Shown piece by piece: positions 5,800-41,140 of a stretch of 64,000 nt of DNA. The first letter of the stretch is position 1. Each line of letters opens with the position of its first letter. The position numbers were made by a program, and so were the translations under genes. Location: the NCBI RefSeq assembly GCF_019375475.1, contig NZ_JAHXGQ010000004.1, positions 372,001 through 436,000 on the forward strand, in the 5' to 3' direction. The notes under the pieces are model-generated. The model did not search any database, had not been told where the DNA came from, and saw only the letters and a program-made list of their open reading frames with translations. This DNA comes from Saccharothrix obliqua. GTDB taxonomy: Bacteria > Actinomycetota > Actinomycetes > Mycobacteriales > Pseudonocardiaceae.

Positions 5800-5911
5800 A
5801 CCCACCTGGGTGCCCCGTAACCGCCACCACCCGGACCGCATCGCTCCTACCTGCGGAAACGTCCGCAACCCACCTCGCTCGGCTCGCCCCCGATGCATCC
5901 TCCAGGCATCC

Positions 5912-5936
5912 TCTATCTTTCAGGGAGCCTGCCTGA
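5912..5936. promoter_or_regulatory. Second copy of the ROK-type operator (one arm degenerate)
   Basis: Twenty-five consecutive bases are identical to 5769-5793, including the full left arm and the spacer, 143 bases away in direct orientation. The right arm then departs from the palindrome (CCTGATAATT instead of CCTGAAAGATA). Two sites about 14 helical turns apart could support looping or cooperative repression of both divergent genes. Confidence 0.65.
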
Positions 5937-6302
5937 TAATTTCAGCGACCGGACCACTGCGATCACTGGAAGGCCAGCGGGAGTCCCCCGCCGACCGCGA
6001 ACACGGCAACCAACACACCGAGCGGAGCCGATCACCCAGCCTTCGAGCCGTCCCGGCCGACCGCGGTCGGGAACGCCGGCGGCCGCAACGGGGCAGCCAC
6101 CGACATCCACAGCGCACGGCCACCGGTGGGTGTGACTACCGCGGCCACAACGACGTGGTCATCGGCGAATGCGGTCACCGGCCAAGGGTCGACGCCGGTG
6201 GCTTCTCGGGTGGTTGTGCGGTCGCGATAGGTCGTAGTCAGGCGTAACAGCGCAACAGGCGCACCAGGACAGACGAGGCTGGGCGGGTGGAGAGGGGAAG
6301 CG
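5937..6302. other. Intergenic leader upstream of the MFS gene
   Basis: About 370 bases between the second operator copy and the MFS start hold no convincing gene; open frames here lack ribosome-binding sites and actinomycete codon bias. AGAGGGGAAG just before 6303 is the ribosome-binding site of the transporter. The stretch between the two operator copies (5800-5911) also shows nothing recognisable. Confidence 0.5.
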
Positions 6303-26805: not shown

Positions 26806-26835
26806 TTCAACGAGTTGTTCAACGATACCGTTGAA
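26806..26835. promoter_or_regulatory. Operator cluster upstream of the erythromycin esterase-like gene
   Basis: TTCAACG occurs at 26806-26812 and again at 26818-26824; the second copy forms a perfect inverted repeat with CGTTGAA at 26829-26835 around ATAC. The site ends four bases before GTG 26839, and the spacing suggests leaderless transcription with the repressor covering the start. The symmetry is TetR-like; no TetR gene is adjacent. Confidence 0.6.
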
Positions 26836-26838
26836 GCA

Positions 26839-28005
26839 GTGACGACGAAGCAGAACGAAGCGCACCCGGCCCGGTCGATCGCCGAGGAGGTCGCGCGGTG
26901 GCTGCCGGCCGGCACCCGGCTGCTCGGTTTCGGCGAGCCGCTGCACGGCGAGGAGCGGTTCCTCCGCCACCGCAACGAGCTGTTCGCCCACCTGGTCGAG
27001 CACGCCGGTTTCGGCGCCATCGCGGTCGAGAGCGACTGCCTGCGCGGCCGGGTGGTGAACGCCCACGTCCGCACCGGCGAGGGCGTGCTGGACGACGTAC
27101 TGCGCACGGGCTTCAGCCACGGCTTCGGCACCGCGCCCGCCGACCGGGACCTGGTGCGGTGGCTGGCCGAGCACAACCGGACCGCCGCCGAACCCGTGCG
27201 GTTCCACGGTTTCGACGCCCCAGTCGAGATGATGGGCGCGGAGAGCCCACGCGGGGCGCTGGCGATCGTGCACGGCTACCTGACCGCCCGTGTCGGGCAC
27301 GTCCTCCCGTGGGAGCGGATCGACGCGCTGCTGGGCGACGACGCCCGTTGGAGCGACCCGGCCGCCGCGATGGACCACACGCGGTCGGTCGGCGACACGC
27401 CGGAGGCCCGCGAGCTGCGGTTGATCGCGGACGACCTGCGGTGGCTGCTGACGGCCGAGTCGCCCGGCCTGGCCGACGACCCGGACGCCCGGTGGGACGC
27501 CGAACTCGCCGCCCGCACCGCCACCGGGCTGCTCGCCTACCACGCGGGCATGGCGGGCGACTCGCCGCGGCGGGTGTCCCGGCTGCTCGGCGTCCGGGAC
27601 GCCATGATGGCCGAGAACCTGTGCGCGCTGGCGGAGCGCGACACCCGACCCACCCTGGTGTTCGCGCACAACCAGCACCTGCGTGCCGGTGCCGTCCGCT
27701 GGGACCTGGCGGGGATGGACCTGCGGTGGCACAGCGCGGGCGCGCACGTCGCCCGCCGGCTCGGCCCGGCCTACGCCGTGATCGCCACGGCGGTGGGCCG
27801 CGCCGAGCGGCACGGGATCGCCGAGCCGGAGCCGGGTTCGGTCGAGGGGCTGCTGTTGGCCGCCGGCGGCGGCACGCGGCTCGTGCCGTCCGCCGGGCTG
27901 CCGACGGCCACCACCCGGCGCACGCCCGGCAACCCCGGCTACTTCCCGCTGGACCCGGCGCACACCGACGAGGTCGACGCCGTGTGGTTCGTCCCGGAGC
28001 TGTGA
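26839..28005 (+). CDS. Erythromycin esterase family protein
   Basis: A 388-residue protein of the EreA/EreB-like family, metal-independent esterases that open macrolide lactones; many family members have other or unknown substrates. Landmarks are GFGEPLHGEERF (the Glu/His pair of the active site), GFGAIAVESDCLRG and FAHNQHLRAGAV. GTG 26839 is preferred to TTG 26815 because the operator overlaps the latter. There is no macrolide cluster nearby, so a resistance role is possible but unproven. Confidence 0.85.
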   Translation: MTTKQNEAHPARSIAEEVARWLPAGTRLLGFGEPLHGEERFLRHRNELFAHLVEHAGFGAIAVESDCLRGRVVNAHVRTGEGVLDDVLRTGFSHGFGTAPADRDLVRWLAEHNRTAAEPVRFHGFDAPVEMMGAESPRGALAIVHGYLTARVGHVLPWERIDALLGDDARWSDPAAAMDHTRSVGDTPEARELRLIADDLRWLLTAESPGLADDPDARWDAELAARTATGLLAYHAGMAGDSPRRVSRLLGVRDAMMAENLCALAERDTRPTLVFAHNQHLRAGAVRWDLAGMDLRWHSAGAHVARRLGPAYAVIATAVGRAERHGIAEPEPGSVEGLLLAAGGGTRLVPSAGLPTATTRRTPGNPGYFPLDPAHTDEVDAVWFVPEL

Positions 28006-29024: not shown

Positions 29025-30776
29025 TCAACGCGCGGTGAGGAACCTGTCCACCGGCAGCGCCCGGTCGACGATCCGCACGTCACCCAGCCAGCCGTGGAAC
29101 GACTTCTCCACCACGCGGTCGTAGGCGTACGCGCCGATCAGCCACGGGTCGTTCGCCGTGGCGATGCCGGTCGCCGGCGTGGACGGGTTGCGCAGCAGCT
29201 CCGACCCCTCGACGTAGAGCTTCGTGCGCCGACCGTCGTTGACGACCGCGACGTGCCACCACACCTCCTCGTCCATCTCGTGCCCCCAGTTGGTGGACAT
29301 GCCGGGCCGGTTCTTCGGGAACACCGCCCACTGCAACCCACCGCCACCCGCCACGTTGAGGGTGCACAGCGGTTCCTTCGGGTCGTCGCCCGTCTTGCCG
29401 GCGGCCGAACCCGGGGCGAGCTTGGTCAGCAGACCCGACCACGGGTGGTTGAAACCCTTGGGCAGCTTCACGAACGCCTCGAACGTGTAGCCGCGCTCGA
29501 ACGTCATCCGGTTGAGCGGCGCGTTGTCGGCGGTGGTGAGGTAGCCCTGCTTGCCGAAGAAGCGGCTGCCGTGGCCGGGCGAGTCCGGGTGGTGGTCGGC
29601 GGTGGCCTCCAGCGCGCCCACCTGACGCAGGTGGTTGCCGTTGCCGGACAGGTCCTGGAGCGAGTCCGACCGCCAGTACGCGACCGTGCCGGGCACCAGC
29701 ACCTGCCGCGCGGGCCGCTCCGGGCGGACCGGCACGGGCGCGAACCCGGCGAACCGGCGGTCGAAGTCGATCGGCACGCTGAACCGGTCCTCGGCGCCGG
29801 TCAGCTCGACCTCGCGCCGCTCCAACGCGTTCAGCGACCGCTTGGCCAGCAGCCATGGCGAGAACGTGCGGACGTCCACCACCTTGCGCGCGAGGTCGAA
29901 CTCGTAGAGCCGGATCATGCCGCTGCCGCCGTAGTAGCGGTCCTGGTAGTTCGTGATGTGGACGTGCACGTCGTTGCCGGCGGCGTTGGTGAGGACGGTC
30001 CGCGCCGGGGGCCAGAAGTGCCCGTTGACGGTGAGGAAGATCTGGTCGTGGTCCTTGATCAGCTCGTCCCACAGGCGACGGCCGTAGCCGGACAGCTCGG
30101 CCTGCCCGCCGTCGCCCGCGTGCACCAGCTCGTGGGTGGTGAGCACGACCGGCAGCTTCGGGTGCTTCGCCAGCACCTCACGGGTCCACGCGAAGCCCTT
30201 TGCCGACATGCGCCAGTCCAGCGCGAGCACCAGCCACTCGCGGCCGGCGGCGCGGAACACGTGGTAGCTGTTGTAGCCGTCCGGGCTCGCACCGCGGAAC
30301 GTCGGCGAGTCGCGGAACCGGTGCGGCCCGAACTCCTCCAGGTAGGGCGTGCGCCCGCGCTGGTCGTCGGTGCGCGAGTCGAGGTCGTGGTTGCCCGCCA
30401 GCACGCTGTACCCGACGCGCCGCCGGTCGAGCGCCCGGAACGACCGGCCGACGTCCTGGATCTCGGCACGCTGCCCGTTCTCGGTGAGGTCGCCGAGGTG
30501 GGCGATGAACACGATGTTGTCCCGCGCGGCGTTGTCCACCAGGTGCCGCAACGCGGCGTCGAGCGGTGCGGCGTCGCCGCGGTCCTGGTCGAACAGGTAC
30601 TGGGTGTCCGGGATGACGGCGATGGTGAACCGGTCGCGGTTCGGGTCGGGCCGGTGACCGGCCGCCCGGACGTCGGGCTCGGCGGACGCGGCGACCGGCC
30701 CGAGGGCTGTCGCGGCGACCGGGACCAGGGCGCCCGCGGCGGCGGAGCCCAGCAGGAACGTGCGGCGGGAGGTCAT
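29025..30776 (-). CDS. Tat-exported metallophosphoesterase with C-terminal LamG domain
   Basis: A 583-residue secreted protein. The N-terminus has a twin-arginine signal (MTSRRTFLLGSAAAGALVP) ending near an Ala-rich cleavage site. Residues about 55-330 are a calcineurin-like phosphoesterase: VIPDTQYL, HLGDLTENG, LAGNHDLD and TTHELVHAG. From about residue 380 a concanavalin A/LamG-like domain follows (YTFEAFVKLPKG; WWHVAVVNDGRRTKLYVEG), probably binding a polymer. ATG 30776 is the start that keeps the Tat motif at the N-terminus. It is divergent from the protease operon (199 bases). An extracellular phosphate-scavenging or nuclease role is plausible. Confidence 0.9.
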   Translation of the reverse strand: MTSRRTFLLGSAAAGALVPVAATALGPVAASAEPDVRAAGHRPDPNRDRFTIAVIPDTQYLFDQDRGDAAPLDAALRHLVDNAARDNIVFIAHLGDLTENGQRAEIQDVGRSFRALDRRRVGYSVLAGNHDLDSRTDDQRGRTPYLEEFGPHRFRDSPTFRGASPDGYNSYHVFRAAGREWLVLALDWRMSAKGFAWTREVLAKHPKLPVVLTTHELVHAGDGGQAELSGYGRRLWDELIKDHDQIFLTVNGHFWPPARTVLTNAAGNDVHVHITNYQDRYYGGSGMIRLYEFDLARKVVDVRTFSPWLLAKRSLNALERREVELTGAEDRFSVPIDFDRRFAGFAPVPVRPERPARQVLVPGTVAYWRSDSLQDLSGNGNHLRQVGALEATADHHPDSPGHGSRFFGKQGYLTTADNAPLNRMTFERGYTFEAFVKLPKGFNHPWSGLLTKLAPGSAAGKTGDDPKEPLCTLNVAGGGGLQWAVFPKNRPGMSTNWGHEMDEEVWWHVAVVNDGRRTKLYVEGSELLRNPSTPATGIATANDPWLIGAYAYDRVVEKSFHGWLGDVRIVDRALPVDRFLTAR

Positions 30777-30975
30777 GGCCGGCGATGCTAGGCACGACCA
30801 CGCAACACGCGACGAACCAGACATGAACCTTGCTCGCATCACTGGGGAAGAGTGCGCACCCTCCCGCATCGCCCCCGTTACCGTTTCGTTATCGGACGGG
30901 CGTATCGGCTCCACCCAAACCACGCACGTGACAAGCGGGGACGGGGGATCGTGTCAATCGCGAGAAGGAGGGCCA

Positions 30976-32568
30976 GTGGCGATCCAGTTCATTCGAAGGC
31001 AACTGGGCGCGCGACCGGCGGGGGGATCCGACTACCGGCCCGCGGCGAAGCTGCGGGTGCCGCCCGAACTGCTCGACCGGCACGGCGGACGGGTGCTCGA
31101 CCCCGTCCGGGCCGAGGCGGCGAGCGGTACGCGGCCGGGTTCGACCGCGTACCGACCGGACGTGCTGCTCATCCCGGACGACGTGCTGCGTGACGAGACG
31201 GCGCTCGGCGCGGTCCGCGCGGTGCTCGACGGCGAGGGGATCGACGTGGAGCACCCCGAGCCCGGCGGCGGCACCACGCCGCGACCGGTGCGGCTGCGCG
31301 CGCGGAACGGGCGGGACCGCGACAACGTCGACTCGTGGGCCGCGTTGCAGCGGTTGCGCGCGGCGGCGGACGACCCGGACACCGGGCCGGACCGCGACGT
31401 GGTCCGGCGCATCACGCTCGAACACCTGGTGTTCAGCGCCGTCACCTTCACCGGCACGCCGTGGGACACCAACAGCCTGGTCGACCGCTCCTACCGCCGT
31501 TCGCCCGGCGGCTCGGCGCGGGTGCCGGTGGCGATCGCCGCCGCGCCGCCCGCCCGCGGCCGACTGGACGACGAGCGCTTCACCCGGCGGCCCGTGGTCG
31601 CCGTGCTCGACTCGGGCATCGGGCCGCACCCGTGGTTCGACATCCACGACCGGTCCACGCCGCCGCCCGCCGGCGGGTTCATCTCGGTGCTGCACGAGGC
31701 GCAGGAGCGCATCCGCGAGAACGCGTTGACCACCGGCGCGTCGCCGTGCCTGATGGACTACTGGGACGCGCCGGTCGTGTCCGACGCGCTGATCCGCGAC
31801 GTGGACAGCAACACCGGGCACGGCACGTTCATCGCGGGCATCATCCGGCAGGCCGCGCCGCGTGCCGACGTGCTCGCCGTCCGGGTCATGCACAGCGACG
31901 GCATCGCCTACGGCTCGGACGTCATCGCCGCGCTGGAGGAGATCGCCCGCCGCGTCGACCGGGCCCAGCGGTACGACCGGCCCGAGGACATGGTGGACGT
32001 GGTGTCCCTGTCGCTCGGCTACCTGGACGAGTCGCCCGACGACGACGTCTACACCTCGCACTTGGCGGAAGTCGTGCGGCGGCTGACCGAGCAGGGCGTG
32101 CTGGTGCTCGCCGCGTCCGGCAACAACTCCACCAGCCGCCGGTTCTACCCGGCGGCGCTGGCGGACCTGCCGGACGTGCCGGGCGCGGGTCCCGGCGTGA
32201 TCAGCGTCGGCGCGCTCAACCCCAACAACACCAAGGCGGGTTTCTCCAACGACGGCGCGTGGGTCACCTGCTGGGCGACCGGAGCGGGCGTCGTCAGCAC
32301 GTTCCCGACCGACGTCCGCGGACCGCGCCAGCCCGAGATGGCCGACAGCCACCGCGCCGGGCTCGACCCGGACGACTTCCACGGCGGGTTCGCGGTGTGG
32401 GACGGCACGTCCTTCGCCACGCCGCTCGCGGCGGCGGCCGTGGCGAACGCGCTGATCGACGTGGCGGCCGAGGACACCGGGCTCAGCCTGGCCGACGTCG
32501 GGCCGGAGACCGTGGTCAAGCGGGCGTGGGCGGCGCTAGAGCGGTGCTATGAGCAGTACGAGGTCTGA
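30976..32568 (+). CDS. Cytosolic S8 (subtilisin-like) serine protease
   Basis: A 530-residue protein without a signal peptide. The catalytic triad is complete: Asp212 in VAVLDSGIGPH, His282 in NTGHGTFIAGI and Ser479 in WDGTSFATPLAAA; the oxyanion Asn is in LAASGNNSTS. The first 200 residues form an extra N-terminal region unlike a standard inhibitor propeptide. GTG 30976 follows GAAGGAG. Its last 20 bases overlap the sigma-factor gene, so it is the first gene of a four-gene translationally coupled operon. A cytosolic subtilisin placed with a sigma factor and a CHAT protease suggests regulated intracellular proteolysis (inference). Confidence 0.92.
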   Translation: MAIQFIRRQLGARPAGGSDYRPAAKLRVPPELLDRHGGRVLDPVRAEAASGTRPGSTAYRPDVLLIPDDVLRDETALGAVRAVLDGEGIDVEHPEPGGGTTPRPVRLRARNGRDRDNVDSWAALQRLRAAADDPDTGPDRDVVRRITLEHLVFSAVTFTGTPWDTNSLVDRSYRRSPGGSARVPVAIAAAPPARGRLDDERFTRRPVVAVLDSGIGPHPWFDIHDRSTPPPAGGFISVLHEAQERIRENALTTGASPCLMDYWDAPVVSDALIRDVDSNTGHGTFIAGIIRQAAPRADVLAVRVMHSDGIAYGSDVIAALEEIARRVDRAQRYDRPEDMVDVVSLSLGYLDESPDDDVYTSHLAEVVRRLTEQGVLVLAASGNNSTSRRFYPAALADLPDVPGAGPGVISVGALNPNNTKAGFSNDGAWVTCWATGAGVVSTFPTDVRGPRQPEMADSHRAGLDPDDFHGGFAVWDGTSFATPLAAAAVANALIDVAAEDTGLSLADVGPETVVKRAWAALERCYEQYEV

Positions 32569-33160
32569 CCGCCACGCGGCGGACGGCAAGCCCTTCGAGG
32601 ACTACGAAGGGCTTGCCGAGCTGTTCGAGTCCGCGCGCGCCGGTGACCGCGTGGCGCTCGGCCGGATCGCGGAAACCCTGGCGCCCCTGCTCTGGCAGGT
32701 CGCGCGGGCGCAGGGGCTGGACCGCGAGCGCAGCGCCGACGCCGTGCAGACGGCGTGGCTGCGCCTGCTCGGCGCGCTGGACGACATCCGCTCGCCACGC
32801 GCGCTCACCGCGTGGCTGGTCACCGTGACCAAGCGGACGGCGTGGCGGATGCGGGAGGAGCAGCGCGACGCGGAACTCGTCGGCGTGCCGCCCGAGGCGC
32901 AGCCGACCGACCCGGAGCCGCTACCCGACGAGCAGGCCGTGTTCACCGACCGGCGGGCCCGGCTGTGGGCCGCGGTGGACCAGCTCTCCCACCGCTGCCG
33001 GGAACTCCTCCGGGTGATCGCGTTCGTGGCGCGACCCGAGTACGGCGAGATCAGCACCGCGCTGGGGATGCCCCGGGGCAGCATCGGTCCGACCCGGGGC
33101 CGGTGCCTGGCGCAGCTGCGCAAGCGGCTGCTCGCCGACGACGAGGGGAGCTGGCGGTGA
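32549..33160 (+). CDS. ECF-type RNA polymerase sigma factor
   Basis: A 203-residue sigma-70 family protein with region 2 (RVALGRIAETLAPLLWQVAR, then DAVQTAWLRLLGAL) and region 4 (LSHRCRELLRVIAF, then EISTALGMPRGSIGPTRGRC). It starts inside the protease gene and ends in a GTGA overlap with the next gene. There is no standard anti-sigma factor with a membrane segment nearby; the small downstream protein is the natural candidate regulator. Recognition promoters cannot be derived from this window alone. Confidence 0.9.
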   Translation: MSSTRSDRHAADGKPFEDYEGLAELFESARAGDRVALGRIAETLAPLLWQVARAQGLDRERSADAVQTAWLRLLGALDDIRSPRALTAWLVTVTKRTAWRMREEQRDAELVGVPPEAQPTDPEPLPDEQAVFTDRRARLWAAVDQLSHRCRELLRVIAFVARPEYGEISTALGMPRGSIGPTRGRCLAQLRKRLLADDEGSWR

Positions 33161-33642
33161 ACACGGCCGACCCGGACGGTCCCAGCGGCGACCTGGACGA
33201 GCTGGACGTGGCGATCCTGCGGGAGGTCCGGTGGATGTGGGAGTCGGTGGACCCGGCTCCCCCCGAACTGGCGGACCTGGTGAAGTTCGCGATCCAGCTG
33301 GAGGACGTGGACGTCGAGGTCGTGCGGCTGACCGAGCACCGCGAGGTCGCGGGCGTGCGCGGCGACGTGCGGTCGAAGCTGATCACGTTCTCCGGCGACA
33401 CGTTGGACTTCATGGTGAACGTGCAGCCGCGCAACGACGGGACGGTGCGCATCGACGGCTGGATCTCGCCGCCCGCCGCGCACCCCGTGGAGGTGCGGAC
33501 CGGTGAAGGACCACCCCTGCACACCTCGGCGAACGAGGAGGGGCGGTTCGCGTTCGACCGGGTTCCCTGCGGCCTCATGCAAATCGTCATCCGGCCGACC
33601 GGCCGAACCAGTGCCGTAAGCACACCGACGATGACACTATAG
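33157..33642 (+). CDS. Small adaptor-like protein of the sigma/CHAT operon
   Basis: A 161-residue soluble protein. Residues 10-60 are acidic and helical (LDELDVAILREVRWMWESVD); residues 60-150 look like a beta-sandwich of the carboxypeptidase-regulatory type (VRIDGWISPPA, then FAFDRVPCGLMQIVI). The GTG overlaps the sigma stop and its TAG is five bases before the CHAT gene. It has no catalytic motif. By position it could bind the sigma factor or act as the proteolytic substrate that controls it; this is inference. Confidence 0.8.
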   Translation: MNTADPDGPSGDLDELDVAILREVRWMWESVDPAPPELADLVKFAIQLEDVDVEVVRLTEHREVAGVRGDVRSKLITFSGDTLDFMVNVQPRNDGTVRIDGWISPPAAHPVEVRTGEGPPLHTSANEEGRFAFDRVPCGLMQIVIRPTGRTSAVSTPTMTL

Positions 33643-33647
33643 GCCCG

Positions 33648-36143
33648 GTGAGCGACCGGGTGCGGACCCTGCATGAGCGCGCGATCGAGGAGATCAACAG
33701 CGGTCGGCCCGCGGTGGGCGCGCGCTTGCTGCGCGAAGCGCTCAAGCTCGGCGAGGCGTCCCCGTCGCGGACCGCCCGGATGCTCGGCACGCTGGCCGCC
33801 GCGGAGGTGTCGCGGGGCGGCACCGACCGGGCGCTGGAGCTGCTGGACGAGGCGGAGCGGGTGGTCGCGCCCGAGGACCGGCACCTGCTGCTGTCCCAGC
33901 GCGCCCTGGTGTTCATGATGTCGGGGCGGCTGGACGACGCGCTCGTGTTGTTCGACGACACCATCCTGCGGTTGCGCCGCACCGACCAGAAGGCCGCGTT
34001 GGCCCGGGTGCTGCTCAACCGCGGGATGCTGCACCAGATCGCGGGCCGGGTGCGGCTCGCGCTCCAGGACCTCGACCAGTGCGCGCAGCTCGGGTCCGCG
34101 CTCGGCCCCGACGACGGGATGCCGCGCACCGTGGCGAAAGCCGTGCACGGCCGCGGCCAGTGCCGGGTGCTGACCGGCGACATCCCCGGCGCGCTGCGTG
34201 ATTTCGACATCGCCGCCGAGGTGTACGCCGACCAGGGGCAGGGGATGCTCGCCGTGCTGGCGGGCGACCGCGCGCGGGCGTTGCTCGCGGCGGGTCTGCC
34301 GACCGAGGCCGCGACCGAGCTGGACACGTTCCTGCGGCAGGTGCCCGAACTGCGGATGGGCCACGAGCACGCCGAGGCGGAGCTGACCATGGCCCGCGCC
34401 CGGCTGGCCGCGGGCGACCCGGGCGAGGCGCTGCGGTGGGCGCGGCGTGCCCGCCTGCACTTCCGCCGCCGCCGCAACGAGACGTGGGCCGGCGTCGCGG
34501 AACTCGTGGCGCTGCGGGCGGAGTTCGCGGCGGGCCGGACGACGGGCCGGGTGGCGCGTGCCGCGTCCCGGCTCGCGGAGCGGCTGCGGTCGCTCGGCCT
34601 GCCCAACGACGCCGACGAGGCCGCCCTCCTGGCCGCCCGCGTGTTCATCGCGCGTGGCGCGCCGGCCGAAGCCCGCGCCGAGCTGGCCGGGCGCGACCGG
34701 CCCGGCGCGCCCCTGGCCAACCGGCTGCTGCGGCGGCTCGCGCTGGCCGAACTCGGTTCCGCGAGCGGCGACCAGCGACGCGCGTTCGCCGAGGCCCGCG
34801 CCGGTCTGGCGTTGTTGCGCGAGCACCGCGCCCGGTTCGGCAGCCTCGACCTCCAGACCGGCACCACGTCGCTCGGCGGCGAACTGGCCCGCGCCGGTCT
34901 CGCGGCGGCGCTGGACAACGGCAAACCCGAGGTCGTGTACCGGTGGCTGGAGCGCTCCCGCGCGCAGGCGTTCCGGTTCCCGCCCGTGCGCACGCCCGCC
35001 GACGAGCACACCGTGGACGCCGTCGCCGAGTTGCGGCAGCTCTCCCTCGACGTCCGCGCCGCCGAGCTGCGTGGCGCGCAGGACCAGGAGGCGTTGCGCC
35101 GCGCCCGGCAGTTGGAGCGCGAGATCCGGGCCAAGGGCTGGCGCACCGACGGCGCGGGCGAGCGGCACGTGGAGGTCGGCTTCGCCGAGGTGAAGGCGGA
35201 GCTGGCGGACGCCGACAGCGTCATGGTGATCTTCCTGGCGTCCGGTGACCGGCTGCTCGCCGAGGTGATCGGCGCGGACCGGGCCGAACTGCTCGGGCTC
35301 GGCGAGACCGCCACCGTGTTCGAGGCCATCGCCCGCCTGCGCAGCGACCTGGACGCGGCGTGCGGGCGGCGGCTGCCGGGCGCGCTGGAGCACGTGATCC
35401 GCACGTCGATCCGGCGGCAGCTCGCCACGCTGTCCGAGCACCTGCTCGACCCGCTGGCCCGGGTCATCGGCGACCGGAACGTGGTGCTGGTGCCGACCGG
35501 CGGGCTGTCGGCGATGCCGTGGGGCCTGCTCGACCGGCTGCGGGGCCGACCGGTCACCGTGACGCCGTCGCCGTCGTCGTGGGTGTCGGCCAAGCGCGTC
35601 ATCCGGCCGCCGGGCTCGGTGCTGCTGGTGAGCGGCCCCAACCTGGACCACGCGTCGGCCGAGGTGAACCGCTTGGCGCGCCTGTACCCCGACAGCACCG
35701 TGCTGGACGGCACGGACGCGACGGTCGCCAACGCGCTGCGTGAAGTCAGTCGCAGCACTCTCGTGCACTTCGCCTCGCACGGGCACCACGAGCAGGAGAA
35801 CGTGTTGTTCTCCCGGCTGGACTTGGTGGACGGGCCGTTGATGGCACACGACGTGCACCAGCTCGCGGCCGTGCCGGACCACGTCGTCCTGTCGTCGTGC
35901 GATGTCGGGCAGGCCGTGGTGCGCACCGGTGACGAAATCCTCGGCTTCACCGCCGCGCTGCTCTACAGCGGCAGCCGGACCGTCGTGTCCAGCGTCGCCC
36001 GCGTGGACGACCAGGCGTCGGTGGACGTGATGACCGCGTACCACCACGCGCTGACCCGCGGCGTGCCGCCGGGCAAGGCGTTGGCGGACGCCACCGAGAC
36101 GGAGTCCCTGATGCCGTTCGTCTGCCACGGCTGGGGCGGCTGA
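33648..36143 (+). CDS. TPR-CHAT caspase-like protease
   Basis: An 831-residue protein. The first 440 residues are helical TPR-like repeats (for example RALELLDEAERVVAPEDRHL and ALQDLDQCAQLGSALG). A helical linker precedes the C-terminal CHAT domain (about 560-831), a caspase-fold peptidase. The catalytic dyad is intact: His711 in VHFASHGHHEQ and Cys751 in VVLSSCDVGQAV. GTG 33648 follows the adaptor stop by five bases. CHAT-TPR proteins act in bacterial defence and regulated cleavage, including the type III-E CRISPR protease that controls a sigma factor. Here it shares an operon with a sigma factor and a subtilisin. Confidence 0.93.
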   Translation: MSDRVRTLHERAIEEINSGRPAVGARLLREALKLGEASPSRTARMLGTLAAAEVSRGGTDRALELLDEAERVVAPEDRHLLLSQRALVFMMSGRLDDALVLFDDTILRLRRTDQKAALARVLLNRGMLHQIAGRVRLALQDLDQCAQLGSALGPDDGMPRTVAKAVHGRGQCRVLTGDIPGALRDFDIAAEVYADQGQGMLAVLAGDRARALLAAGLPTEAATELDTFLRQVPELRMGHEHAEAELTMARARLAAGDPGEALRWARRARLHFRRRRNETWAGVAELVALRAEFAAGRTTGRVARAASRLAERLRSLGLPNDADEAALLAARVFIARGAPAEARAELAGRDRPGAPLANRLLRRLALAELGSASGDQRRAFAEARAGLALLREHRARFGSLDLQTGTTSLGGELARAGLAAALDNGKPEVVYRWLERSRAQAFRFPPVRTPADEHTVDAVAELRQLSLDVRAAELRGAQDQEALRRARQLEREIRAKGWRTDGAGERHVEVGFAEVKAELADADSVMVIFLASGDRLLAEVIGADRAELLGLGETATVFEAIARLRSDLDAACGRRLPGALEHVIRTSIRRQLATLSEHLLDPLARVIGDRNVVLVPTGGLSAMPWGLLDRLRGRPVTVTPSPSSWVSAKRVIRPPGSVLLVSGPNLDHASAEVNRLARLYPDSTVLDGTDATVANALREVSRSTLVHFASHGHHEQENVLFSRLDLVDGPLMAHDVHQLAAVPDHVVLSSCDVGQAVVRTGDEILGFTAALLYSGSRTVVSSVARVDDQASVDVMTAYHHALTRGVPPGKALADATETESLMPFVCHGWGG

Positions 36144-36153
36144 GCCGTGGGTC

Positions 36154-36972
36154 TCAGGCGGACATGCAGAACTCCATGACCGCCTGGTGGACCGGCAGGA
36201 GTGCCTGCTTGAACCCGTGCCCCGCGAAGGCCGGGTGCTTGAACGCGTCCGCGGTGGCTTCGCGGCCGGCCACGTGCGGCGGGCAGGGTGCGTACTGCGC
36301 GCCGGGTGGGGCCGTGTCGAGGAGGTCGGCGGTGATCCGGAACGGCGCGAGCCGGTCGGCGTGGGGGCCGGGACCGTCGGTGATGATCACGTCGGCGGTC
36401 CTGATCGCCCCTGCCAGGTCGTCCGTCCAGTCGCCGCCCGGGGTCGCCAGTTCGCGCGGGCAGCACTGGGTGAGGTCGAGCCCGAGCACGGTCGCGATCT
36501 CCCGCCAGGCGCCCGCGATGTTCCCGTCCGCACCGACGAAGAGGTAGTGCAGTGCCCGCGGGTCGCGCTTCTTGCCGAGCGTGTACACGTCGCTGAGCAC
36601 TTCGCAGGGGTGGTTGAGTTCCGACATGGCGTTCACCACCGGCACGGGGCTTCCGGCAGCGATGCCCTCGATGATCTCCATGCGGTGCCGGACGACCAGG
36701 ACGGCCGTCCACGGGGCCAGGTAACCCGCCACGTCCGACAGCGCTTCCGGCTTCTCCAGGGCGTCGGGCGGGCACACGATCGGTTGCAGGCCCATCAGGT
36801 GGGCGCCGCGCTCGAACGTCACCCGGGTGCGCAGGCTCGACGAGGGGAAGAACATCACCGCGGACCCGGATCGACGCGGCCCGTTCCCCGCGCTGTACTC
36901 GTCGGCCAGCGCGAAGACCGCGTCGATCTCCGCTCGCGTCCAGTCGGTGAGTCGTACCAGGTGCCGCACCAC
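36154..36972 (-). CDS. Divergent ornithine/aspartate carbamoyltransferase family protein
   Basis: A 272-residue member of the carbamoyltransferase fold, shorter than the usual 300-340. The carbamoyl-phosphate motif is present as SSSLRTRVTFE, and NHPCEVLSD replaces the usual HPxQ. The ornithine-binding HCLP loop is replaced by APCPPHVAG. It is not clustered with arginine or pyrimidine genes. These changes suggest a different acceptor, perhaps in secondary metabolism, or a non-catalytic role. It converges on the CHAT gene, ten bases apart. Confidence 0.8.
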   Translation of the reverse strand: MVRHLVRLTDWTRAEIDAVFALADEYSAGNGPRRSGSAVMFFPSSSLRTRVTFERGAHLMGLQPIVCPPDALEKPEALSDVAGYLAPWTAVLVVRHRMEIIEGIAAGSPVPVVNAMSELNHPCEVLSDVYTLGKKRDPRALHYLFVGADGNIAGAWREIATVLGLDLTQCCPRELATPGGDWTDDLAGAIRTADVIITDGPGPHADRLAPFRITADLLDTAPPGAQYAPCPPHVAGREATADAFKHPAFAGHGFKQALLPVHQAVMEFCMSA

Positions 36973-40944: not shown

Positions 40945-41140
40945 TCCGGTCGGAGCCACGCGGCCGGTGGTCCGCGTGGTCGAGCCACGCGAGCCGCCAC
41001 GCGGCCGGTCGTCCGCGTGGTCGAGCCACGCGAGCCGCCACGCGGCCGGTCGTCCGCGCGGTCGAGCCACGCGAGCCGCCGAGCGGCCAGTCGTCCGCGT
41101 GGTCGAGCCAGCCGCACCGCCGAGCGGCCGGTGGCGGCCG
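40945..41140 (+). repeat. 41-bp tandem repeat array with alternative hairpins
   Basis: About four and a half copies of a 41-base unit; the segment CCGCGTGGTC recurs at 40972, 41013, 41054 (as CCGCGCGGTC) and 41095. Inside each unit CGCGTGG and CCACGCG pair around TCGAG, while CCGCGTGG can also pair with CCACGCGG of the preceding unit around CCGGTCGT. The two hairpins are mutually exclusive. The period is not a multiple of three, so it is not a protein repeat. It begins at the trpF stop and lies before a converging lipoprotein gene. The remaining DNA to 41263 shows no gene. Confidence 0.85.

Follow-up and report, generated by a model that had tools for sequence, protein, structure and literature searches.

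The window analysed here, a stretch of 64,000 nucleotides of Saccharothrix obliqua (contig NZ_JAHXGQ010000004.1, positions 372,001 to 436,000), carries an operon of four genes that encode an S8 subtilase, an extracytoplasmic function (ECF) sigma factor, a protein of 161 residues (below, the small protein) and a TPR-CHAT cysteine protease. By its gene context the operon fits an actinobacterial regulatory module of the ECF54 type. Comparison with related loci shows that the sigma factor and small-protein genes are the most constant pair of this module, that CHAT is its steady third part, encoded in cis or elsewhere in the genome, and that the S8 protease is optional, an accessory and not part of the core. 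The reading that we favour, with a confidence a little short of even and by analogy with Csx29 and Csx30, is that CHAT would cut the small protein to free the sigma factor. The four genes are the following:

30976 to 32568, plus strand: S8 subtilase gene; 530 residues; Pfam PF00082, E = 1.6e-26; catalytic D212, H282 and S479
32549 to 33160, plus strand: ECF sigma factor gene; 203 residues, regions 2 and 4; PF04542 (Sigma70_r2), E = 3.2e-8
33157 to 33642, plus strand: gene of the 161-residue partner protein; helices followed by a beta-sandwich (AlphaFold2); putative sigma-restraining adaptor and candidate protease substrate
33648 to 36143, plus strand: TPR-CHAT cysteine protease gene; 831 residues; PF12770, E = 4.9e-30 at residues 590-816; TPR_12, E = 5.1e-7; catalytic H711 and C751

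An earlier interpretation, made from the letters of the DNA alone (the sequence-only reading), had described these four open reading frames, and all of them are present. The S8 and sigma factor genes overlap by 20 bases (32549-32568), the sigma factor and small-protein genes share the four bases GTGA (33157-33160), and a gap of 5 bases (33643-33647) separates the small-protein gene from that of CHAT. Peptidase_S8, Sigma70_r2, CHAT and TPR_12 all score above their Pfam cut-offs, TPR_12 by 0.1 bit. The sigma factor also matches TIGR02937 (64.6 bits, cut-off 42.9, residues 37-194), and the profile of its family matches solved ECF sigma factors over regions 2 and 4. The catalytic residues named in the earlier reading are where it placed them, and they are invariant among homologues covering at least 80% of the model: the CHAT histidine and cysteine in 68 of 68 sequences, and the S8 Asp, His, Asn and Ser in 31 of 31, with the window counted in both sets. 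The same reading had the S8 protease without a signal peptide; indeed, no hydrophobic signal sequence is evident at its N terminus, as judged by eye with no predictor. The S8 protease is not identified as a mycosin of the type VII secretion system (TIGR03921, 80.5 bits, cut-off 278.75). Neither a sigma70-type promoter nor a terminator was found in 30700-36400.

The gene set has been catalogued. A 2022 review of non-canonical ECF sigma factors (PMC8999054), which credits Huang et al. 2015 and Casas-Pastor et al. 2021 for the description of ECF54, gives this group a conserved context of subtilase, carboxypeptidase and CHAT proteins, counts the carboxypeptidase among the proteases and names SFT86700.1 of Geodermatophilus amargosae as an example. 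It proposes proteolytic control without an anti-sigma factor, and its section 3.3 treats ECF54, next to ClpXP and AntA, among the sigma factors that proteolysis keeps inactive. Both features are found here: an ECF sigma factor with regions 2 and 4, and, in the window and its relatives, S8, CarboxypepD_reg-like and CHAT neighbours, if the carboxypeptidase of the review is taken to be the regulatory-like domain. The likeness to ECF54 thus lies in an ECF sigma factor with this conserved context; unlike in the published description, the most constant partner here is the coupled small protein, which shows no peptidase domain, S8 can be absent, and a module can be divided over two sites of the genome. 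No tested ECF54 member is named in the available part of the review, and among the matches listed by a search of the open literature, mostly at the level of titles and abstracts, there is no experimental study of the gene set or of an ECF54 member; for ECF54 the one relevant match is a review. The claim of the sequence-only reading that no system with this gene set has been characterised therefore loses novelty, since the set is catalogued with proposed proteolytic control, and keeps its footing in that the review text names no tested member. The gene set, the ECF54 group and the proposal of proteolytic control were already known; the proposed mechanism is plausible and is sharpened here. What we add is the constancy of the sigma-small pair, CHAT as steady third part, the optional S8, a model of the small protein with a near-invariant arginine, and an upstream element.

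We followed the module through related genomes (L-numbers denote loci and G-numbers genomes of the comparison set). A single-sequence search over 150 genomes of the same family detected the small protein in 79, and a profile search over 396 genomes of the phylum detected it in 47 (E ≤ 0.001), with E ≤ 1e-10 in 33 of these. A scan of a genome collection with the sigma profile matched at least 595 stretches, at least 569 of them relatives, and the best 80 loci were kept. Among these 80, 79 are titled as actinobacteria, none as Geodermatophilus, and L132, a metagenome-type contig, is labelled Melainabacteria. The small gene adjoins the sigma gene in 74 of the 80 sigma-fetched loci, and the sigma gene adjoins the small gene in 37 of 40 neighbourhoods picked from small-gene hits. 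The stop of the sigma gene overlaps the start of the small gene by 4 bases in 103 of 131 distinct pairs, as would be typical of stoichiometric partners. The coupling of sigma factor and small protein proposed earlier is borne out by this behaviour as a pair. The distances for sigma, small protein, CHAT and S8 increase in parallel (Spearman 0.845-0.901; 73 loci, or 28 where S8 is involved; no species baseline). The window's genome itself has four copies of the sigma-small pair, on contigs C33, C44, C2 and C1, with one module split.

Gene content was tabulated, at a reach of 4 kb, for 92 loci of the small gene that had 4.2 kb or more of flanking sequence on both sides; the window is not among them. 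Sigma, small protein and CHAT occur together in 33 loci, all four genes in 29, and the sigma-small pair alone in 27; two loci have S8, small protein and CHAT with no sigma gene, and one has the small gene alone. Counted singly, CHAT lies within reach of the small gene in 64 loci and S8 in 31. Since sigma served to retrieve many of these loci, its presence there follows from the selection. In 22 loci the four genes stand on one strand in the order S8-sigma-small-CHAT, and in 7 others the S8 or CHAT gene is divergent or placed at another point of the cluster. The sequence-only reading had staked its proposal on a gene order conserved beyond close relatives, and the linkage does recur across the phylum; the arrangement is far beyond chance. 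No natural fusion of module proteins was found among the 150 loci scanned.

CHAT is the steady partner protease, near the small gene in the 64 loci and encoded elsewhere in the genome in the cases that follow. All seven genomes checked that have a sigma-small locus with no adjacent CHAT (G000, G021, G030, G019, G093, G078 and G136) carry a CHAT of the same subfamily elsewhere; in G019 this full-length CHAT has its own sigma-small pair beside it. We therefore rejected the equation of a sigma-small locus lacking adjacent CHAT with a genome lacking CHAT. At E ≤ 1e-60, CHAT was found in 17 of 17 chosen small-gene genomes from six genera and in none of 20 genomes without a single-sequence small-gene hit, the latter being those listed among 71 family genomes with no small-gene match. 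Of the 20, five show a CHAT at the weaker level of E ≤ 1e-40; three of the five (G012, G013 and G025) have a small-gene match next to it that is weak and divergent (E 1e-7 to 1e-5). The window's genome has an orphan CHAT (C1:1.118 Mb) whose closest similarity is to CHATs of sigma-small-CHAT loci, as would be expected for the moved partner of the C44 sigma-small pair. At seven of 21 CHAT loci with no adjoining small gene, an S8 of the module family lies upstream in the same orientation. The module thus consists of two separable halves, sigma-small on the one side and CHAT with optional S8 on the other.

The sequence-only reading described S8 as one gene of a four-gene operon; it is not a core part of the module. 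The 33 sigma-small-CHAT loci have no S8 gene within 4 kb of the small gene, and no relative of the L200 S8 at E ≤ 1e-20 was detected in any of 14 genomes with sigma-small-CHAT in cis and no adjoining S8. Over 36 genomes the L200 query matched only the S8 of the window's operon; it misses divergent S8 proteins, such as that of L040 in the window's genome, and the absence is therefore relative to this sensitivity.

Short peptide genes accompany some CHAT genes. Upstream of CHATs with no adjoining small gene, a fast-evolving gene encodes repeated GGPY[KQ][PT] units (L191, L197, L206, L210, L212, L214 and L215); in L191 it spans 5817-6122, corresponding to C1:1115816-1116121 of its own genome. Relatives of the L210 peptide were found in 5 of 150 family genomes, four of them in the window's genus, with one match each, the fifth being weak. 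Such a peptide is a possible CHAT substrate or peptide signal. In Actinophytocola loci a peptide open reading frame between the small gene and CHAT carries repeated GH[VI]GTGS[AIS]P units; in L106 it lies between 8073 and 8762 and has eight units by our own count, and L071 and L109 have it in the same gap. A different short open reading frame, Cys-rich and mostly His-rich (e.g. HTHEDGELSPLCAGGGC in L211), lies upstream of CHATs with no small gene in L203, L209, L211 and L213.

The small protein was modelled with AlphaFold2 on 38 sequences (predicted local distance difference test, pLDDT, 87; predicted template modelling score, pTM, 0.70). The model has helices at residues 15-31 and 38-49 and a beta-sandwich at 53-155. 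The sole Pfam match of the window protein is a sub-threshold CarboxypepD_reg at residues 111-156, a family matched at E ≤ 0.1 by 30 of 38 homologues; no peptidase domain was found by Pfam in the window protein or the 38 homologues. Given a regulatory-type sandwich and no peptidase domain, the published carboxypeptidase, if it is the same gene, would not be an enzyme. Foldseek returned 846 PDB matches to the model at E ≤ 10, none of them at E ≤ 0.001, and the best PDB chain for the profile of the 38 homologues had E = 0.27, the presence of Csx30 in that PDB copy being unchecked. Among 136 sequences, P35, F78, G101, G129 and F131 are invariant (five of 19 columns tabulated). Arg68 (codon 33358-33360) is kept in 132 of 136, and the position that follows holds G, S, A or T in 135. 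Arg68 sits in the least confident internal block of the model (61-70, mean pLDDT 67); in the L136 model the equivalent arginine, residue 248 by our own count, is inside a segment (241-249) with pLDDT under 50. A near-invariant arginine in a low-confidence loop makes a candidate cleavage site, and a cut in this modelled loop would part the helices from most of the sandwich.

In the mechanism we favour, the small protein, which may itself be an anti-sigma factor, would hold or position the sigma factor. A signal, perhaps sensed via the TPR domain, would activate CHAT, which would then cut the small protein, most plausibly in the flexible Arg68-Gly69 loop; the cut would part the helical portion from the beta-sandwich and so free the sigma factor to act on its target genes. 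The apparently cytoplasmic S8 protease would work with CHAT as activator, second cutter or clean-up protease. The genes with their conserved linkage and overlap, the catalytic residues, the co-occurrence of CHAT with the sigma-small pair at genome level, the pairing of S8 with CHAT and the upstream element described below are the observations on which this proposal builds; inhibition by the small protein, its cleavage by CHAT, the position of the cut, the signal and the target genes are inferred.

Several results weigh against this proposal. The small protein matches no anti-sigma family, except for one of 38 homologues (NCBIfam antisigma, E 0.084). Arg68 is kept in 27 of 28 loci without a nearby CHAT, compared with 83 of 86 with one, and the residue is thus conserved irrespective of an adjacent CHAT; a CHAT acting in trans may account for this, and a binding or structural role for Arg68 is also possible. 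G006 and G016 have weak small-gene matches (best E ~2e-4) and no CHAT of this subfamily at 1e-40. Six of the 80 sigma loci (L126-L131) have no small gene in the fetched flanks, which we note as a different wiring. L046 and L060, two loci of one genus, carry S8-small-CHAT with no sigma gene between, and the small protein there must act without a neighbouring sigma factor; their genomes hold other sigma factors of the family elsewhere. Finally, we modelled a read-through fusion of sigma factor and small protein at L136 (TGA read as G), the only one of the named loci where the two genes share a frame. With alignment A5 (24 small-protein rows and three other sigma rows, no paired rows) the fusion gave pTM 0.40 and no interface error value, so no docking is predicted with confidence, and the model speaks neither for nor against binding. 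Larger mixed alignments (A4, A6 and A7) were left unused, the small-protein rows having fallen wholly or partly on the sigma half.

The published proposal itself runs the other way: ECF54 is placed among sigma factors kept inactive by proteolysis (PMC8999054), the proteases degrading sigma. We add to it that the small protein could act as an adaptor recruiting CHAT and S8 to the sigma factor, with no anti-sigma factor involved, and a beta-sandwich adaptor would fit both the gene overlap and the S8-small-CHAT operons. We nevertheless consider this improbable, as the carboxypeptidase of the review shows here a CarboxypepD_reg-like sandwich and no peptidase domain, and an adaptor alone leaves the conserved arginine in a low-confidence loop unexplained.

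The region upstream of the operon contains a further feature that bears on how the module is switched on:

30876 to 30906, plus strand: promoter-like element GTTAC-N6-GTTAT-N9-GTATC; repeat at 30877-30892, GTATC at 30902-30906; about 70 bases before the S8 start

We compared upstream regions of type A, which precede an S8 gene that is itself followed directly by sigma or small, with those of type B, comprising the others, in which sigma or small comes first. The pattern GTNAY-N6-GTNAY-N8-11-GTATC is present in 15 of 26 type-A regions and in none of 50 rounds of dinucleotide shuffles. The direct repeat alone occurs in 18 of 26 type-A regions (shuffle mean 0.34) compared with 3 of 100 type-B regions (shuffle mean 0.84), and GTATC alone in 20 of 26 type-A (shuffle mean 2.7) and 59 of 100 type-B regions (shuffle mean 8.0). 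Several regions come from close relatives, so these counts are not independent. In the whole 8.04 Mb genome the full pattern occurs once, at this operon, and a looser regulon search returned the operon and one match with 3 mismatches; thus no wider regulon carries the element in this form.

What reads the element can be argued in two directions. GTTAC-N6-GTTAT matches the AfsQ1 box GTnAC-n6-GTnAC (PMC6988585) and resembles the MtrA repeats (PMC13189361), except for the last base. An OmpR-type response regulator of the AfsQ1 or MtrA kind may therefore bind it, and the module would be one output of a nutrient or envelope two-component system that the sigma factor amplifies. The frequency of the repeat in type-A regions, those of the sigma-less lineage included, speaks for this reading, which is compatible with the others; its rarity in type-B regions speaks against it, and GTATC, being common to both types, better fits a -10 element read by a sigma factor. 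On balance we regard a response regulator as possible and rather doubtful. GlnR is presumably a further regulator of this kind.

The sigma-less operons L046 and L060 keep the element, which argues against its being read by the operon's own sigma factor alone. Their existence also favours a view in which the small protein and CHAT, with or without S8, form a protease effector unit, the sigma factor serving mainly to drive its expression through the conserved promoter, so that sigma release is not the point. The single occurrence of the element in the window's genome and the S8-CHAT pairs found apart from sigma agree with it. Against it, no link within the module is tighter than that of sigma and small protein, and this pair stays together also where CHAT, alone or with S8, is encoded elsewhere; we think this view less probable than sigma degradation.

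A role in phage defence, as a CRISPR-free system, had been part of the sequence-only reading, and here little spoke for it. Its logic would resemble that of type III-E systems, and there are partial likenesses. S8 matches the PADLOC family of the anti-phage peptidase IetS over residues 270-499 only (E 4.8e-9) and is no member of IetS/IteS (NF042956, 27.7 bits, cut-off 900); CHAT resembles Csx29 far below the cut-off of that family (NF041237, 16.2 bits, cut-off 300), and its PADLOC match to BovA is non-significant (E 0.13). The sigma factor and the small protein have no PADLOC match. We ran PADLOC on 77 of 99 called proteins flanking 12 type-A relatives and the window, two further relatives having been dropped. 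They matched 39 families, none of them by more than one protein, there being no random-gene baseline for these counts. The strongest names were DrmD, DpdE, ZorD and BrxH (SNF2-helicase types), probably one protein, and mad2 and mad3 were also among the matches. Pfam identified histidine kinases, transporters, enzymes and housekeeping genes among the flanking proteins, and a gene that we take from its sequence to encode GroEL is nearby in 6 of 17 sigma-small neighbourhoods inspected. No CRISPR-like array, sought as direct repeats of at least 22 bases within 400 bases, was found in window positions 20000-48000; the four repeat families there (GC-rich low complexity, a 41-base tandem and one distant pair) are none of them spacer-separated. 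With no enrichment for defence in the flanks and four module copies in one genome, a defence system is very unlikely, and no co-occurrence with defence islands is seen. The surroundings are those of a regulatory module resident in the genome, and they do not form a defence island.

Other features of the surroundings are noted for completeness. An erythromycin-esterase-family protein (PF05139, E 2.6e-42) is encoded upstream of the operon at 26815-28005. Convergent with the operon end is an aspartate/ornithine carbamoyltransferase-like gene (36154-36972, minus strand, 272 residues), whose N-terminal domain scores above and C-terminal domain below the Pfam cut-off. A tandem array of 41-base units in about four copies occupies 40955-41118, between two script-called genes.

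A known system with the logic of our proposal is the type III-E CRISPR system with its CASP components Csx29, Csx30 and CASP-sigma, in which Csx29 cleaves the sigma inhibitor Csx30 (PMC10028731). The two are alike in a TPR-CHAT protease, an ECF-like sigma factor, a third protein and the logic of cutting a sigma inhibitor; the module described here differs in the lack of CRISPR-like repeats in the 28 kb around it, in a CHAT far below the Csx29 cut-off and in the added S8 protease. The same source names ECF/anti-sigma pairs under regulated proteolysis, RpoE/RseA with DegS and SigW/RsiW. These share with our proposal a sigma partner whose cutting is the switch, and here the sigma and partner genes overlap. 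Unlike RseA and RsiW, however, the partner is modelled as soluble helices and a beta-sandwich, and the module includes caspase-like and subtilisin-like proteases. ECF sigma factors also occur in EACC2-caspase neighbourhoods (PMC8195603), with other partner domains (EACC2, TRADD-N and DUF1822); no such small protein is mentioned in the part of that report available.

If CHAT does cut the small protein, many actinobacteria would have a CRISPR-free control of transcription by a caspase-like protease, the catalogued ECF54 sigma group would gain a concrete single-residue prediction, and the printed carboxypeptidase, if it is the same gene, would be better read as a small adaptor-like protein than as a peptidase. 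A bolder version, which we hold unlikely in its full extent, is that of a CRISPR-free, phylum-wide switch: CHAT would cut between Arg68 and Gly69 of the coupled partner and release the ECF sigma factor, in several relatives the repeat-peptide could be a second substrate or a released signal, and CHATs would be general signal-driven sigma activators in Actinomycetota, with type III-E as a special case.

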